Below the pieces are notes generated by a model. It was not told the DNA's origin and made no database searches. It saw only the letters and a list, made by a program, of their open reading frames with translations. Below are positions 24,951-36,550 of a stretch of DNA of 36,709 nucleotides, piece after piece. Source of the DNA: Pseudomonadota bacterium (GTDB lineage: Bacteria > Pseudomonadota > Gammaproteobacteria > Steroidobacterales > Steroidobacteraceae); assembly GCA_021822385.1 (NCBI GenBank), contig JAKARC010000025.1, forward strand, positions 1-36,709. The letters run 5' to 3'. Positions within the stretch are counted from its first letter, which is position 1, and each line of letters starts with the position of its first letter. Both the position numbers and the translations under genes were made by a program.

Positions 24951-26933
<1,983 letters not shown>

Positions 26934-32678: not shown

Positions 32679-33416
32679 TTACTCCAAGTTAATGCGTACT
32701 GCGGCCGTAACCGCAAGCGGGGCGAGCGTGATCGCCAGCACGGCGAGCGCCGCAAGCAACAGCAGCGGTCCCCGGTAGGCTTCACTCCTGATCGCCAATT
32801 GCGTGGCCCGTGCTCCAAAGATCAATACCGGTATCACCAGCGGCAACGTCAACAGCGACAGCAACGCACCCGAGCGGCGCAGTCCCATCGTGAGCGCCGC
32901 CCCCACCGCACCGATGAGGCTGAGTGTGACCGTGCCGATGGCGACGGTGGCAAGAATGCCCGGCATCGCCGCCTCCGGTACACCGAGCGCGGCTCCCGCG
33001 ATGGGCGCCATCAGCGCCAGGGGCAAACCGGTCAGCAGCCAATGCGCAACAGTTTTCGCCAGAAGCAGCCCGGTCAGTGATCGACCCGAAAGCGCGAACT
33101 GTTCGAGCGTGCCGTCATGGGCGTCATCACGGAACAGGAATTCCAGCGCGAGCAGAGAGGAAAGCAAGGCCGCCGCCCAAATCACCCCCGGAGCGATCCG
33201 GCGCAGCTGCACAAGATTCGGAGTGACCGCCAGAGGAAAGAGCGTGGTCACGATCACAAAGAAGGCCATGGGCTGCACGAGCTGGCTCGCCTTGCGGAAG
33301 GCCAGACGCAAGTCACGCTCCAGCATCAGGCGTGCAACGGACCCGATTGAGGGCACCGCCGGGCCCTGTGAACCGGCTGCGGAGCGCAGGGCCGCCCAAG
33401 CACTCGCCTCAGCCAT
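32679..33416 (-). CDS. ccmB: Heme ABC exporter permease CcmB
   Basis: Membrane subunit of the CcmAB(C) ABC complex, 245 residues with about six hydrophobic spans. The ATG at 33416 overlaps the end of ccmA by 8 nt and removes an unrelated N-terminal stretch. Conserved parts: ERDLRLAFRKASQLVQPMAF, LFRDDAHDGTLEQFALSG and SGALLSLLTLPLVIPVLIFG. With CcmA it drives ATP-dependent release of holo-CcmE. Confidence 0.94.
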   Translation of the reverse strand: MAEASAWAALRSAAGSQGPAVPSIGSVARLMLERDLRLAFRKASQLVQPMAFFVIVTTLFPLAVTPNLVQLRRIAPGVIWAAALLSSLLALEFLFRDDAHDGTLEQFALSGRSLTGLLLAKTVAHWLLTGLPLALMAPIAGAALGVPEAAMPGILATVAIGTVTLSLIGAVGAALTMGLRRSGALLSLLTLPLVIPVLIFGARATQLAIRSEAYRGPLLLLAALAVLAITLAPLAVTAAVRINLE

Positions 33417-34038
33417 TGCCGAGCTCCAGTGTGTGCAACCCCTGGGGCGACATCTGCAACGCATGATGCACGGCGACCACCGCAAGGCCTCCAGAGGCCA
33501 AATGTTCCGCGATCAGCGTGCCAACCTGTCGCTGCCCGTCCACGTCCAGATTCGTCGTAGGCTCATCGAGCAGCCACAGCGAGACTGCGCTCAGAAGCAG
33601 ACCTGCGAGCGCCACACGCCGCTTCTGACCCGCCGAAAGCGTGTGTACGGGCCGGTCGGCCCATCGATCCCCACCCACCTGCTCGAGCGCTTGAGCCATT
33701 TCGCGGTCGCTGCTACGCCGCCGCACACCGATCCAATATTTGAGGTTTTCACGAGCCGTGAGCTCCATTTTCAAGGGGGGCTCGTGTCCCAAATACGTCA
33801 TCTGCGCATGAAAAGCCGGCAAATCCTGCCGGATATCCTCGCCCCTCCAGTGGACAGATCCAGCTTCCGGATAGGAAAGCCCGCAGATGGTGCGCAGCAG
33901 ACTCGTTTTTCCCGATCCATTCGGTCCGGTCAATTGCAGGCACTGCCCGGCTGCGACCGTGAAATTCACACCGCGCAGGACATGCCGCTCACCGCGCCAC
34001 AAATGCAGATGCTTGCCCTCGAGTGTCGCTTCCGACAT
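33409..34038 (-). CDS. ccmA: Heme ABC exporter ATP-binding protein CcmA
   Basis: ATPase of 209 residues, first gene of the ccm operon. Walker A is TGPNGSGKTSLLRTICGL, the signature is HTLSAGQKRRVALAGLLL, Walker B is LWLLDEPTTNLD and the switch His is in VVAVHHALQ. The start at MSEATLEGKH gives the family's usual length; a TTG at 34089 preceded by AGGAG is possible but gives an untypical 17-residue extension. The promoter should lie between this gene and the divergent tRNA-Leu; TTGCTA about 120 nt upstream of the start is a candidate -35 but is not convincing. Confidence 0.95.
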   Translation of the reverse strand: MSEATLEGKHLHLWRGERHVLRGVNFTVAAGQCLQLTGPNGSGKTSLLRTICGLSYPEAGSVHWRGEDIRQDLPAFHAQMTYLGHEPPLKMELTARENLKYWIGVRRRSSDREMAQALEQVGGDRWADRPVHTLSAGQKRRVALAGLLLSAVSLWLLDEPTTNLDVDGQRQVGTLIAEHLASGGLAVVAVHHALQMSPQGLHTLELGNG

Positions 34039-34213
34039 GGTGCTGGTCGGCCCATAAACAAAAGGTTCCGAAGGACGAAGCTTGACCAATCTCCTGTCAT
34101 CTGGCCATAGGCACTGCGCCGCGATAAATACGTATCCTTGCGTATAGCAACCGCCATTACCATAATCGTATTGCAGATTACGCTCTCAGGTACAATGGTA
34201 GTGTGATCGCTCT

Positions 34214-34554
34214 GCCCGGGTGGCGAAATTGGTAGACGCAAGGGACTTAATCTAAAATTGAGCATTCGGCGCGGAAACGGCCGGGATGAATGGGGTCAAA
34301 TTCGGTGGAACAGGAACACGTCGTGGTGTCTGCAATACCGAGCTAAGCCACCCGCCTGAGGGGTGGAAAGTGTAGAGACTTGACGGCCCCTACCTAAACG
34401 CCGCGGCGAATGCTGCGGGGCACGGTAAAGATAAAGTCCAGACTCCAAATGCGCGTACCGCTGCATGCGGGGTGCGCAGCGGCGAAAGCCGTAGCGGGTA
34501 TGAAAATCCCTCGGGGGCAACCCCATGCCGGTTCGATTCCGGCCCCGGGCACCA
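34214..34554 (+). tRNA. tRNA-Leu(UAA), interrupted by a group I intron
   Basis: The 5' exon is 34214-34248 and the 3' exon 34503-34554. Joined they form a normal class II tRNA: acceptor GCCCGGG pairs with CCCGGGC (34544-34550), discriminator A and encoded CCA (34552-34554). The D-arm is TGGCGAAATTGGTAGACGCA, the anticodon stem AGGGA pairs with TCCCT around a CTTAAAA loop, the variable arm is CGGGGGCAACCCC and the T-arm GCCGGTTCGATTCCGGC. The anticodon is UAA, with the intron between U34 and A35. The 254-nt insertion explains why an uninterrupted tRNA is not visible. It probably reads UUA codons, rare in a GC-rich genome but needed. It is divergent from the ccm operon and bordered downstream by integrase debris. 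Confidence 0.92.
34249..34502 (+). ncRNA. Group I self-splicing intron in tRNA-Leu(UAA)
   Basis: Intron of 254 nt, no ORF inside. The 5' splice site lies in a P1 helix where CUUAAU (34246-34251) pairs with AUUGAG (34257-34262); the last exon base U34248 forms the required U-G wobble with G34260. The intron ends in the conserved G (34502). Conserved core elements are seen in order: Q-like CAATACCGAGCTAAG (about 34332-34346), R-like GTGTAGAGACTTGACGGCC (34369-34387) and S-like AAAGATAAAGTCCAGA (34426-34441). GACT of R pairs with AGTC of S to form P7, the guanosine-binding helix. The insertion position (U34/A35) and small size match the IC3 introns of cyanobacterial and plastid tRNA-Leu(UAA). 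Confidence 0.9.
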
Positions 34555-34765: not shown

Positions 34766-35105
34766 ATGTTGTCGGATGCGAAGATTCGAAGGCTCAAACC
34801 GAAGGAGAAGGCATACAAGGTCTATGACGATCGCGGGCTCTACATGGGAACGGGTCGCGGTGGTGGCGGTTTAAGTACAAGTCCGACGGGCGGGAGCGCG
34901 GGATTTCGCTCGGCGTGTACCCGGATGTGACGCTGCAATATGCGCGGGAGCAGCTGCAGGAGGCGCGGCAGCTCCTTGCTCGGGGGATCGACCCGAGCGC
35001 GCAGCGGCCGACAGTCAAGATCGCCAGGGCGGACACCTTCAAGGTGATCGCCGAGGACTGGCTGGAGATGCAGGCGGAGACGCTGGCGCCGATCACGATG
35101 TCGAA
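34766..35105 (+). pseudogene. P4-type tyrosine integrase, N-terminal fragment with frameshift
   Basis: The N-terminal part of a phage P4/CP4-57-like integrase. It starts MLSDAKIRRLKPKEKAYKVY with DDRGLYM, the DUF4102 arm-binding domain. Near 34850-34860 the frame shifts; the continuation in another frame reads RWWRFKYKSDGRERGISLGV, YPDVTLQYAREQLQEARQLL and FKVIAEDWLEMQAE. The similarity ends at SKARW at about 35105, before the core-binding and catalytic domains. A GGAG precedes the ATG. The location just downstream of a tRNA gene fits an integrase that targeted that tRNA. The gene is dead by frameshift and by loss of the catalytic half. Confidence 0.82.
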
Positions 35106-35564
35106 GGCGCGGTGGACCCTGAGAACAGACTCGTCGCACGCGGGCTCGAAGCCGAGTGGGAAGGCGCCCTGCAGGAGCTCAAGACCGCCGAAGCTGAGCT
35201 CGCCAATCGAGAGAGCGGTCGCCCCCGACCGCTCACACGCGAAGAACGCGAGTCGATCCTCGCCCTCGGCAAAGATCTCAAACGCGTCTGGTATGCTCCC
35301 ACGACAAGCGATCGCGATCGCAAGGAGTTGTTGCGCACGCTGCTCGATGATGTCGCCTTGACGGTCGCGCGCGCACAATCCAACGCTCATCTGACGCTGC
35401 GCTGGCGTGGCGGCCTCTTGAGCGAGATCGACGTACCGCTGCCGCGCTCGCATCCCTCGCCAATCCGCACCGCCGACGATACTGTTGATCTGTTGCGGCG
35501 TGATGACGCCTGCGAGCGTGATTATCAGCGTCTCAGGCGGATGCGATCTCAGCGTGTCGGCTGA
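35106..35564 (+). pseudogene. Large serine recombinase, C-terminal fragment
   Basis: A 150-residue open frame corresponding to the C-terminal part of a large serine recombinase. It reads DPENRLVARGLEAEWEGALQ, ELKTAEAELANRE (coiled-coil part), LALGKDLKRVWYAPTTSDRD, RKELLRTLLDDVALTV, HLTLRWRGGLLSEIDVPLPR and IRTADDTVDLLRR. These are typical of the region after the recombinase and zinc-ribbon domains. The catalytic resolvase domain is missing because the sequence joins directly to the tyrosine integrase fragment at about 35105. It is therefore a remnant, not an active recombinase. Confidence 0.75.
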
Positions 35565-35585: not shown

Positions 35586-36011
35586 TCAGATAAACAGGTC
35601 AGCCGTGACATTGAACCTGTGCGCGAACTTCTTCGCGAGTTCCTTGCTGACCGCGCGTCTACCGTTGAGGATGTCAGAAATTCGGCTCTGCGGCGCGCAG
35701 TCGGCCAGATCTTCCTGTTTCAGGCCGTGCTGCTCCATCAGAAACCGTAGAACCCCAGCCGGTGCGGCCTCGGGGACGACGGTGTGTTTCTCCTCGTATG
35801 CCGCGACCTGGTCGGCCAGGTAATCGAGTACGTCGGCGAGCGGGTGGTCTTCGTCGTCCCCAATCGCATCGATCAGCGCATCGACCGTGGCACAAGCTTT
35901 CGCGTAATCCGCCTTGGTCCGCACCGCGGTGACTCCGACTGCTCTCTTGAACGGCATCCAGGCACGCAGGATCGCCTGCGGATCTGGAGTAGCACGGTGT
36001 GCAGGGCGCAT
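35586..36011 (-). CDS. higA: HigA-type antitoxin (XRE HTH)
   Basis: A 141-residue antitoxin and DNA-binding protein that neutralises the HigB toxin and represses the operon. The C-terminal half is an XRE helix-turn-helix: LRFLMEQHGLKQEDLADCAP, SRISDILNGRRAVSKELAKK and FAHRFNVTADLFI. The N-terminal half is acidic and helical (DALIDAIGDDEDHPLADVLD, YLADQVAAYEEKH), as in the COG5499 type. The ATG at 36011 has GGAG upstream and lies 2 nt after the higB stop. The order toxin-antitoxin is typical for hig modules. Confidence 0.9.
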   Translation of the reverse strand: MRPAHRATPDPQAILRAWMPFKRAVGVTAVRTKADYAKACATVDALIDAIGDDEDHPLADVLDYLADQVAAYEEKHTVVPEAAPAGVLRFLMEQHGLKQEDLADCAPQSRISDILNGRRAVSKELAKKFAHRFNVTADLFI

Positions 36012-36013
36012 AT

Positions 36014-36307
36014 TCAGCTTCTCCGCTTCCACTTGTCGCCGTCGTACTCGGCATGGGTGAGCACCTGGCGGATGTACACCTTGCGCCGATTGTAGTGGAC
36101 CACCGCAATCAGGCGGTACCTGTTCCCGCCGATATTGAATACCGTGAACGGATCGACGTAATCGGCGCTACCGAATGTCTTTCGCAGCGCGTTGAAGTCC
36201 GCAAAGACCTCCAGGCGCATGATCCGGTACCACGCCTCGAGCGACCCCTTGGCCTCCGGATGCCTCTTCCAGAATTCAACCAGCGCGGGCTTCGCGATGA
36301 CGTGCAC
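36014..36307 (-). CDS. higB: HigB-type mRNA interferase toxin
   Basis: A 97-residue toxin of the RelE/HigB fold that cleaves ribosome-bound mRNA. The start is GTG at 36307, giving VHVIAKPALVEFWKRHPEAK, the exact family N-terminus (MHVI...). Later motifs: TVFNIGGNRYRLIAVVHYNR and KVYIRQVLTHAEYD, typical of the HigB_toxin family with its basic catalytic surface. A promoter with -10 only 8 nt upstream of the GTG implies an almost leaderless transcript. Upstream in-frame codons up to 36481 do not look like the protein. Confidence 0.9.
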   Translation of the reverse strand: MHVIAKPALVEFWKRHPEAKGSLEAWYRIMRLEVFADFNALRKTFGSADYVDPFTVFNIGGNRYRLIAVVHYNRRKVYIRQVLTHAEYDGDKWKRRS

Positions 36308-36314
36308 CGGGGAA

Positions 36315-36342
36315 ACTATACCATAACGGTATTCTTCATCAA
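36315..36342 (-). promoter_or_regulatory. higBA promoter with operator palindrome
   Basis: On the minus strand, -35 TTGATG (36337-36342) and -10 TATAGT (36315-36320) with a 16-bp spacer. The palindrome ATACC-ATAAC-GGTAT (plus strand 36318-36332) overlaps the -10 and spacer, a fitting site for repression by HigA. The start codon of higB is just 7 nt beyond the -10. Confidence 0.65.
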
Positions 36343-36550
36343 GTCTCGTGGCGAAACTCCCCCACTCTAATGACGCCTGAGTAGCGTAGGATTGAATTGG
36401 TAGCTGACGAGCGATCCTGCTCCCGCGAGCAGACTGGTGAGACTCTTTTGAGCACGCAGACTGGATTGGGACTGGCTGCATTCATCCTGATCGTAGGTGC
36501 CGGCTGCTTCGCGTTGATGAGCGCCGCCGCTATGAGACCACTGGCTCCGT

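Follow-up and report, generated by a model that had tools for sequence, protein, structure and literature searches.

The boundary between U34 and A35 of tRNA-Leu(UAA) is the classical group I intron site of cyanobacteria and plastids. A tRNA-Leu(UAA) gene interrupted at this site was found in the window, the analysed stretch of 36,709 nt from a gammaproteobacterium of the family Steroidobacteraceae. The locus raises the questions of whether the split gene is functional, how widespread such genes are, and where the intron came from.

Split tRNA-Leu(UAA) gene

Positions 34214-34554 of the window represent a tRNA-Leu(UAA) gene with a 254-nt group I intron between U34 and A35. The joined exons, 87 nt in length, form a complete tRNA-Leu(UAA) with a full cloverleaf, a long variable arm, and an encoded CCA. 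ARAGORN run with the intron search recovered this gene, confirming the initial annotation of a perfect tRNA split between U34 and A35, with exactly the same coordinates. The same program without the intron search found no tRNA in the window, in line with the suggestion that the gene is missed by tRNA finders. At the Rfam gathering threshold, no group I intron was found and the only element listed in the window was a TPP riboswitch. In the proposed check against the Rfam group I model, run with an E-value threshold, RF00028 (Intron_gpI) matched positions 34239-34453 with an E-value of 5.2e-8, but the score of 37.3 bits was below the cut-off of 50. A simple scan revealed no terminator and no convincing promoter for the split gene; one promoter-like match was located inside the gene. 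The features of the locus are as follows:

33409..34089, minus strand: ccmA, divergent neighbour and locus marker in the family (match at family loci)
34214..34248, plus strand: 5' exon of tRNA-Leu(UAA), up to U34 (ARAGORN with introns, joined exons)
34246..34262, plus strand: P1, exon CUU and intron AA paired with the internal guide UUGAG (34258-34262), U.G at the splice site (structure and covariation)
34249..34502, plus strand: group I intron, 254 nt, terminal base G (ARAGORN with introns, RF00028, covariation)
34292..34297, plus strand: 5' strand of P3, GGGGUC, partner at 34385-34390 (both-sided change in 4 of 6 pairs)
34302..34341, plus strand: P4 (34302-34306 with 34337-34341), enclosing P5 (structure and covariation)
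34348..34366, plus strand: P6a hairpin, the region that holds an HNH endonuclease gene in bacterial relatives (structure and covariation)
34377..34381, plus strand: 5' strand of P7, GACUU, partner AAGUC at 34434-34438 (both-sided change in 3 of 5 pairs)
34391..34427, plus strand: P8 (34391-34394 with 34424-34427) and P8a (structure and covariation)
34451..34491, plus strand: P9 and the P9b hairpin with a GAAA cap (structure and covariation)
34503..34554, plus strand: 3' exon of tRNA-Leu(UAA), from A35, including the encoded CCA (ARAGORN with introns)
34915..35361, plus strand: fragment of a degraded tyrosine integrase, 3' of the tRNA gene (PF13356, residues 2-31)

The integrase remains suggest that an element once integrated at the 3' end of the tRNA gene. 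A second attachment site, which an exact repeat of at least 16 nt of exon 2 could mark, was not found on the window's plus strand. Next to these remains, an HTH protein and a HigB-like toxin (PF09907), likely a toxin-antitoxin pair, are encoded on the minus strand (35586-36481). Elsewhere on the minus strand, the TPP riboswitch (26810-26932) precedes thiC, and a mercury(II) reductase gene (NF010311) occupies positions 582-2234.

Intron structure and covariation

The reconstructed structure comprises 70 pairs, including the intron helices P1-P9b and the acceptor and anticodon stems, with P3 treated as a pseudoknot, and was scored on 25 aligned genes from several lineages. Paired bases occupied 95.6% of the cells versus 79.1% in shuffles, and the covariation score was 0.436 versus 0.149. 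Changes on both sides were observed in 42 of the 70 pairs compared to 30.9±2.2 in shuffles, and none of the 500 shuffles reached this value. When partners were slid by one column, pairing fell to at most 45.5%. Since the structure was read off the window's own sequence, it has an advantage over the slid versions, and the shuffle comparison is raised by the relatedness of the genes; stronger evidence for the structure comes from the both-sided changes. The P3/P7 pseudoknot is present together with P4-P6 and P8; P3 and P7 were paired in 99.3% and 100% of the cells, respectively, and both covary. The P1 helix with U.G at the 5' splice site, the terminal G, and the P7 pairing described in the initial annotation are all present, and covariation over the 25 genes supports the structure. 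The terminal G was found in all 255 Leu and Arg introns inserted at 34/35 (duplicates counted).

The 3' half of the intron (34391-34511) gave a sub-threshold match to LOOT RNA (RF03000; 31.1 bits at a cut-off of 46.4), whose consensus resembles P8 of the window's intron. This partial match raised the possibility that LOOT RNA represents a fragment of introns of this kind. A search for LOOT matched none of 299 genomes, and the controls gave no match either; two viral pattern matches resemble ordinary coding sequence.

Gene copies in the genome and in its relatives

A second intact tRNA-Leu(UAA) gene, named beforehand as an observation that would make the split copy a pseudogene, was not found in the window's own genome, although a further copy could exist because the assembly is 85% complete. 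In 13 more complete genomes of relatives with the split gene (93-100%), six other full-length matches were typed; Leu(CAA) and Leu(CAG) accounted for three each, and no intact Leu(UAA) was among these six; similar 74% matches in the rest of the 13 genomes lay outside this typing. The same genus also includes members with uninterrupted tRNA-Leu(UAA) genes (L032, L033), so the intron is dispensable. At all four same-genus loci with uninterrupted genes that were checked (L473-L476), ccmA was present in the stretch, as in the window; empty alleles thus occupy the same locus within the genus. A truncated second copy, consisting of exon 2 and the 3' half of the intron, was observed at a contig end in one same-genus genome (L417, G147:C2:51700-52176).

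Distribution in Pseudomonadota

Sixteen of the 36 genomes of the same genus matched across the entire split gene, and four more matched in parts. For the wider survey, a covariance model of the 3' core of the window's intron was used. Matches were found in 90 of the 296 genomes of the order, of which 62 were strong (E-value no higher than 2e-11) and 28 weak, in 55 of the 370 genomes sampled from the class, and in 43 of the 397 genomes sampled from the phylum, the latter two counts including other tRNAs, such as Arg(CCU). Therefore, the intron is not exceptional for a gammaproteobacterium, contrary to the initial expectation, given the strong matches in the order and the matches in the class. 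Twelve of the weak matches in the order were fetched (L197-L208); ARAGORN read six of them as tRNA-Arg(UCU) split at 34/35, and the other six were unread or misread. These split tRNA-Arg(UCU) genes (L197, L198, L200, L204, L205, L206) are located mostly in the Pro-Arg-His-Lys tRNA operons of the order. The tRNA order Gly-Cys-Leu was observed at many loci of the class sample. Only 1 of the 20 scanned loci of relatives contained a group I match at the Rfam cut-off.

Interrupted tRNA-Leu-TAA and tRNA-Arg-TCT genes have already been noted in Beggiatoa BOGUAY and Thiomargarita (PMC4853749). These are likewise gammaproteobacterial tRNA-Leu(UAA) and Arg(UCU) genes with putative group I introns; the accessible text of that paper leaves the structure and type of the tRNA introns undetermined and does not mention CAA, phage, or HNH genes.

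Among other known tRNA introns of this group, those in tRNA-Arg(CCU) are known in alphaproteobacteria. They interrupt another tRNA in another lineage, with insertion after the anticodon according to ARAGORN. Four Arg(CCU) introns from other classes of the phylum formed one clade near the Leu(UAA) introns in a tree of 216 introns. Group I introns have been described in tRNA-Ile(CAU) of Acidovorax and Burkholderia (PMC8450103) and Azoarcus (PMC3984707); as far as described there, these also belong to Pseudomonadota tRNAs but interrupt a different tRNA after U36. The window's genome contains a second group I intron outside the window (G000:C66:25936-26291; positions 1478-1833 of L272), which scored 53.2 bits, above the Rfam cut-off, and splits a CAU-anticodon tRNA after U36, as the Azoarcus tRNA-Ile intron does.

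Second intron lineage and tRNA-Leu(CAA)

In the same genus, another intron lineage (B) interrupts tRNA-Leu(CAA). Its P7 and P3 differ from those of the window's intron through compensatory changes. A scan of genome contigs revealed the lineage B core at no fewer than 118 loci. ARAGORN assigned the 118 matches listed to Leu(UAA) (77), Leu(CAA) (34), and Phe (3, probably misread), leaving four unread. Of 80 of the matches listed, nearly all came from beta- and gammaproteobacteria, for example, Achromobacter, Variovorax, Rhodanobacter, Stenotrophomonas, and Pseudomonas jinjuensis; contamination may account for one Mycobacterium record and one Chloroflexi MAG in this set.

The 5' exon of the split tRNA-Leu(CAA) ends with C34, while the guide is still UUGAG; the splice-site pair is C-G instead of U.G. 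Solimonas soli (L084) is one carrier of such a split tRNA-Leu(CAA) gene. After removal of identical introns, the exon ended with U in 166 UAA genes and with C in all 44 CAA genes. Of these introns, 161 of the 166 UAA and 43 of the 44 CAA ones show UUG[A/G]G as their guide motif, and the pairing stated here applies to them. A shifted cut would not restore U.G in Leu(CAA), since exon 2 starts with AAAATC after the terminal G. The genome G1007 (single contig, 100% complete) carries both a split Leu(UAA) and a split Leu(CAA) gene, and a search of it with the Leu(CAA) query at an E-value of 0.001 gave no uninterrupted copy. Another genome (G325) has a split Leu(CAA) gene alongside an intact Leu(UAA) gene. 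The UAA and CAA introns found in the genus represent different lineages (98, starred), and an origin of the CAA intron by duplication of the UAA intron within one genome was therefore rejected. Within lineage B, one switch between UAA and CAA would be compatible with the tree (AU test, p 0.37 and 0.56).

Phage introns

Viral contigs contained the window-type core in no fewer than 119 stretches. ARAGORN read 124 viral loci, including five of lineage B, as Leu(UAA) (38) and Arg(UCU) (8); 50 were unread, and 28 received scattered assignments that may be misreadings. Several viral split tRNA genes are located in tRNA arrays, and one split Leu(UAA) gene is carried by the 735-kb uncultured phage LR756501. 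The viral introns performed better at the Rfam group I cut-off than their bacterial relatives: 9 of the 12 loci scanned passed it (L314 twice). In the 216-intron tree, 18 of the 25 viral Leu rows were in one clade with viral Arg(UCU) introns (97, starred), the others being placed elsewhere, and one viral row (L348) adjoined a bacterial row.

An unannotated CAU-anticodon tRNA of Klebsiella phage Muenster, between tRNA-Ser and tRNA-Asn, also seems to be split (positions 1414-1724 of L402; MT708547.1, 302826-303136), as read by eye from the sequence, the joined form being rejected by ARAGORN. Similar intron cores were observed between two capsid coding sequences of Pelagibacter phage HTVC120P (L400, MH598807.1) and between two ribonucleoside reductase coding sequences of a Rhizobium phage (L405, MN988507.1). 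According to the accessible text of a 2014 review, all phage introns observed by then were in protein-coding genes (PMC3984707). In titles and abstracts of open-licence literature, a scope that gives no proof of absence, we found no survey of Pseudomonadota tRNA-Leu group I introns, no Leu(CAA) case, and no recognised split phage tRNA. Group I introns in tRNA genes generally, the UAA site, and the brief note on Beggiatoa and Thiomargarita were known already; the Leu(CAA) lineage, the phage split genes, and the HNH linkage described below are newer than the split Leu(UAA) gene itself.

HNH endonuclease

An intact antisense HNH gene encoding 154 amino acids is located in the P6a region of four gammaproteobacterial introns, each about 690 nt long; the frame in one of them (L228) opens 30 codons earlier than in the other intact loci. 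In a same-genus locus (L034), the HNH gene is present as broken pieces inside the intron. The window's intron had no HNH match and thus lacks a homing endonuclease gene of its own. In the class sample, this HNH family was found in 5 of the 370 genomes (E-value of 1e-15), in all five inside the tRNA-Leu(UAA) intron, with one copy broken. One bacterial intron HNH matched the phage family PHROG 10822 at 3.9e-46, and only weak matches were obtained with Pfam. In contrast to the phages of PHROG 10822, bacteria of the class sample have this HNH gene only inside tRNA-Leu(UAA) introns; in the bacterial loci whose orientation was examined, it is antisense.

Among 40 viral split Leu(UAA) genes, the HNH gene was inside in three (two antisense, one sense), and in eight, near-copies among them, an antisense HNH gene overlapped the 3' end of the split gene or lay 3 nt from it. 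In the remaining 29, no HNH was found within the stretch examined. Viral HNH loci were also collected by protein alone, independently of the intron (34 loci). The nearest tRNA was Leu in 23 of the 33 such loci with any tRNA, and Leu accounted for 17 of the 151 other tRNAs there; counted by distinct HNH genes, the nearest tRNA was Leu in 19 of 29. One locus counted as Met (L423) was recognised by eye as a split Leu(UAA) gene, and L424 received the same call; L444 resembles a split Leu(UAA) gene with the HNH inside.

Descent of the intron and the ccmA locus

In the FastTree phylogeny of 216 introns, which contained no cyanobacterial sequences, the window's intron belonged to a starred set of 28 rows, all representing tRNA-Leu(UAA) of its own order. 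The nearest rows were from the same genus and then from other gammaproteobacterial families, with no phage row nearby. Recent phage-to-host transfer of the window's copy was considered, and none was seen in this tree. Of the two origins proposed in the initial annotation, transfer or wider ancestry, the latter is supported, but recent transfer was not seen, given the nearest rows from the own genus and the ccmA neighbour within the genus. A scan for the cyanobacterial intron core gave no match. The cyanobacterial intron occupies the same site of the same tRNA and is similar in size; the relatives found here are Pseudomonadota and phages.

Among 38 loci examined, ccmA was present in the stretch at 26 of the 27 family loci, representing the window's genus and three sister genera, versus none of the 11 loci of other families. 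In 13 stretches from further genera of the family, ccmA was found in 11 and a split tRNA-Leu(UAA) gene in 12, often near Gly and Cys tRNA genes. Only one of these 12 split genes (L469) joined the window's clade (29 rows; 97, starred); nine were in two other starred clades, and two were elsewhere. Since 11 of the 12 fall outside the window's clade, one locus holds different intron lineages in different genera, and the family has not inherited the intron by simple vertical descent. A purely vertical history across the family was dropped for the same reason; it is retained as probable only for the window's genus and a few of its sister genera. The ccmA-linked locus is old, but split genes at this position turn over in the family. 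Over longer times, the gene or the intron has likely been replaced there. Other intron lineages at the ccmA locus in several genera (L461-L472) are accompanied by differing tRNA exons, a sign of replacement.

Proposed function and alternative explanations

We are highly confident that the window carries a split tRNA-Leu(UAA) gene whose group I intron is free of an endonuclease and belongs to a group of lineages with signs of mobility in other hosts. Gene, intron, structure, locus, and HNH linkage can be read directly in the sequences; from these we infer splicing, homing, and passage through phages, the latter two from the linkage. Splicing may be expected from the intron anatomy and the need of the cell for the tRNA. 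Following the steps known for group I introns, the internal guide UUGAG would pair with CUU of the 5' exon, a guanosine bound in P7 would cut after U34, and the freed U34 would attack behind the terminal G, joining the exons. That the split copy is dead, with tRNA-Leu(UAA) supplied by another copy outside the assembly, is very improbable: the incomplete assembly leaves room for such a copy, but the exons are perfect, the pairs of the intron core are maintained by compensatory changes, and the full-length matches typed in the more complete relatives included no intact UAA gene. Long-fixed introns can come to depend on proteins, and the loss of self-splicing in favour of a host protein would be in keeping with this; the intact and covarying core helices make it improbable, though less so than a dead copy.

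The window's copy, free of an endonuclease, is shared by much of the genus and by a few of the sister genera, where it adjoins ccmA. Related lineages still look mobile, with HNH genes borne by introns and with split tRNA-Leu(UAA) genes of large phages having the same HNH inside or adjacent. A possible, still tentative explanation is phage-centred homing dedicated to tRNA-Leu, in which an HNH gene located beside intact phage tRNA-Leu genes would join an intron, enter one of its loops, ferry it between the tRNA-Leu(UAA) genes of phages and bacteria, and then be lost to leave introns such as the window's, one lineage having switched between UAA and CAA with a C-G pair. Less probable is that the HNH family acts on phage tRNA arrays in general, with no functional tie to the intron. 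The phage HNH gene often adjoins uninterrupted tRNA-Leu genes, that of Erwinia phage Cronus lies between Leu(UAG) and Tyr tRNA genes, and most viral split Leu(UAA) genes (29 of 40) have no HNH in the stretch examined; against this, all five bacterial carriers in the class sample have it inside the tRNA-Leu(UAA) intron, and 11 of the 40 viral split genes have it within the intron or at their 3' end. It is also rather unlikely, if somewhat less so, that the genus acquired the intron or the entire split gene horizontally, with cyanobacteria, plastids, phages, or other bacteria as the source. The shared insertion site with the cyanobacterial intron speaks for such transfer, and the other lineages at the same locus in the family together with the uninterrupted genes in part of the genus imply that gains, losses, or replacements occurred, but the nearest rows of the tree, from which cyanobacterial sequences are absent, are from the same genus and other gammaproteobacterial families, not from phages. 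Phage-centred homing, if true, would explain the different intron lineages at one locus within the family.

Apparent stages of HNH association coexist: the HNH gene adjoins an intact or a split tRNA gene, lies within the intron, is decayed, or is absent. They provide a natural test of how a tRNA-adjacent endonuclease joins a mobile intron. The intron family is likewise a natural test of faithful group I splicing with C-G replacing U.G at the 5' splice site. Many Pseudomonadota can seem to lack essential tRNA genes in annotation, because most split forms examined here were reported neither by a plain tRNA search nor at the Rfam cut-off.
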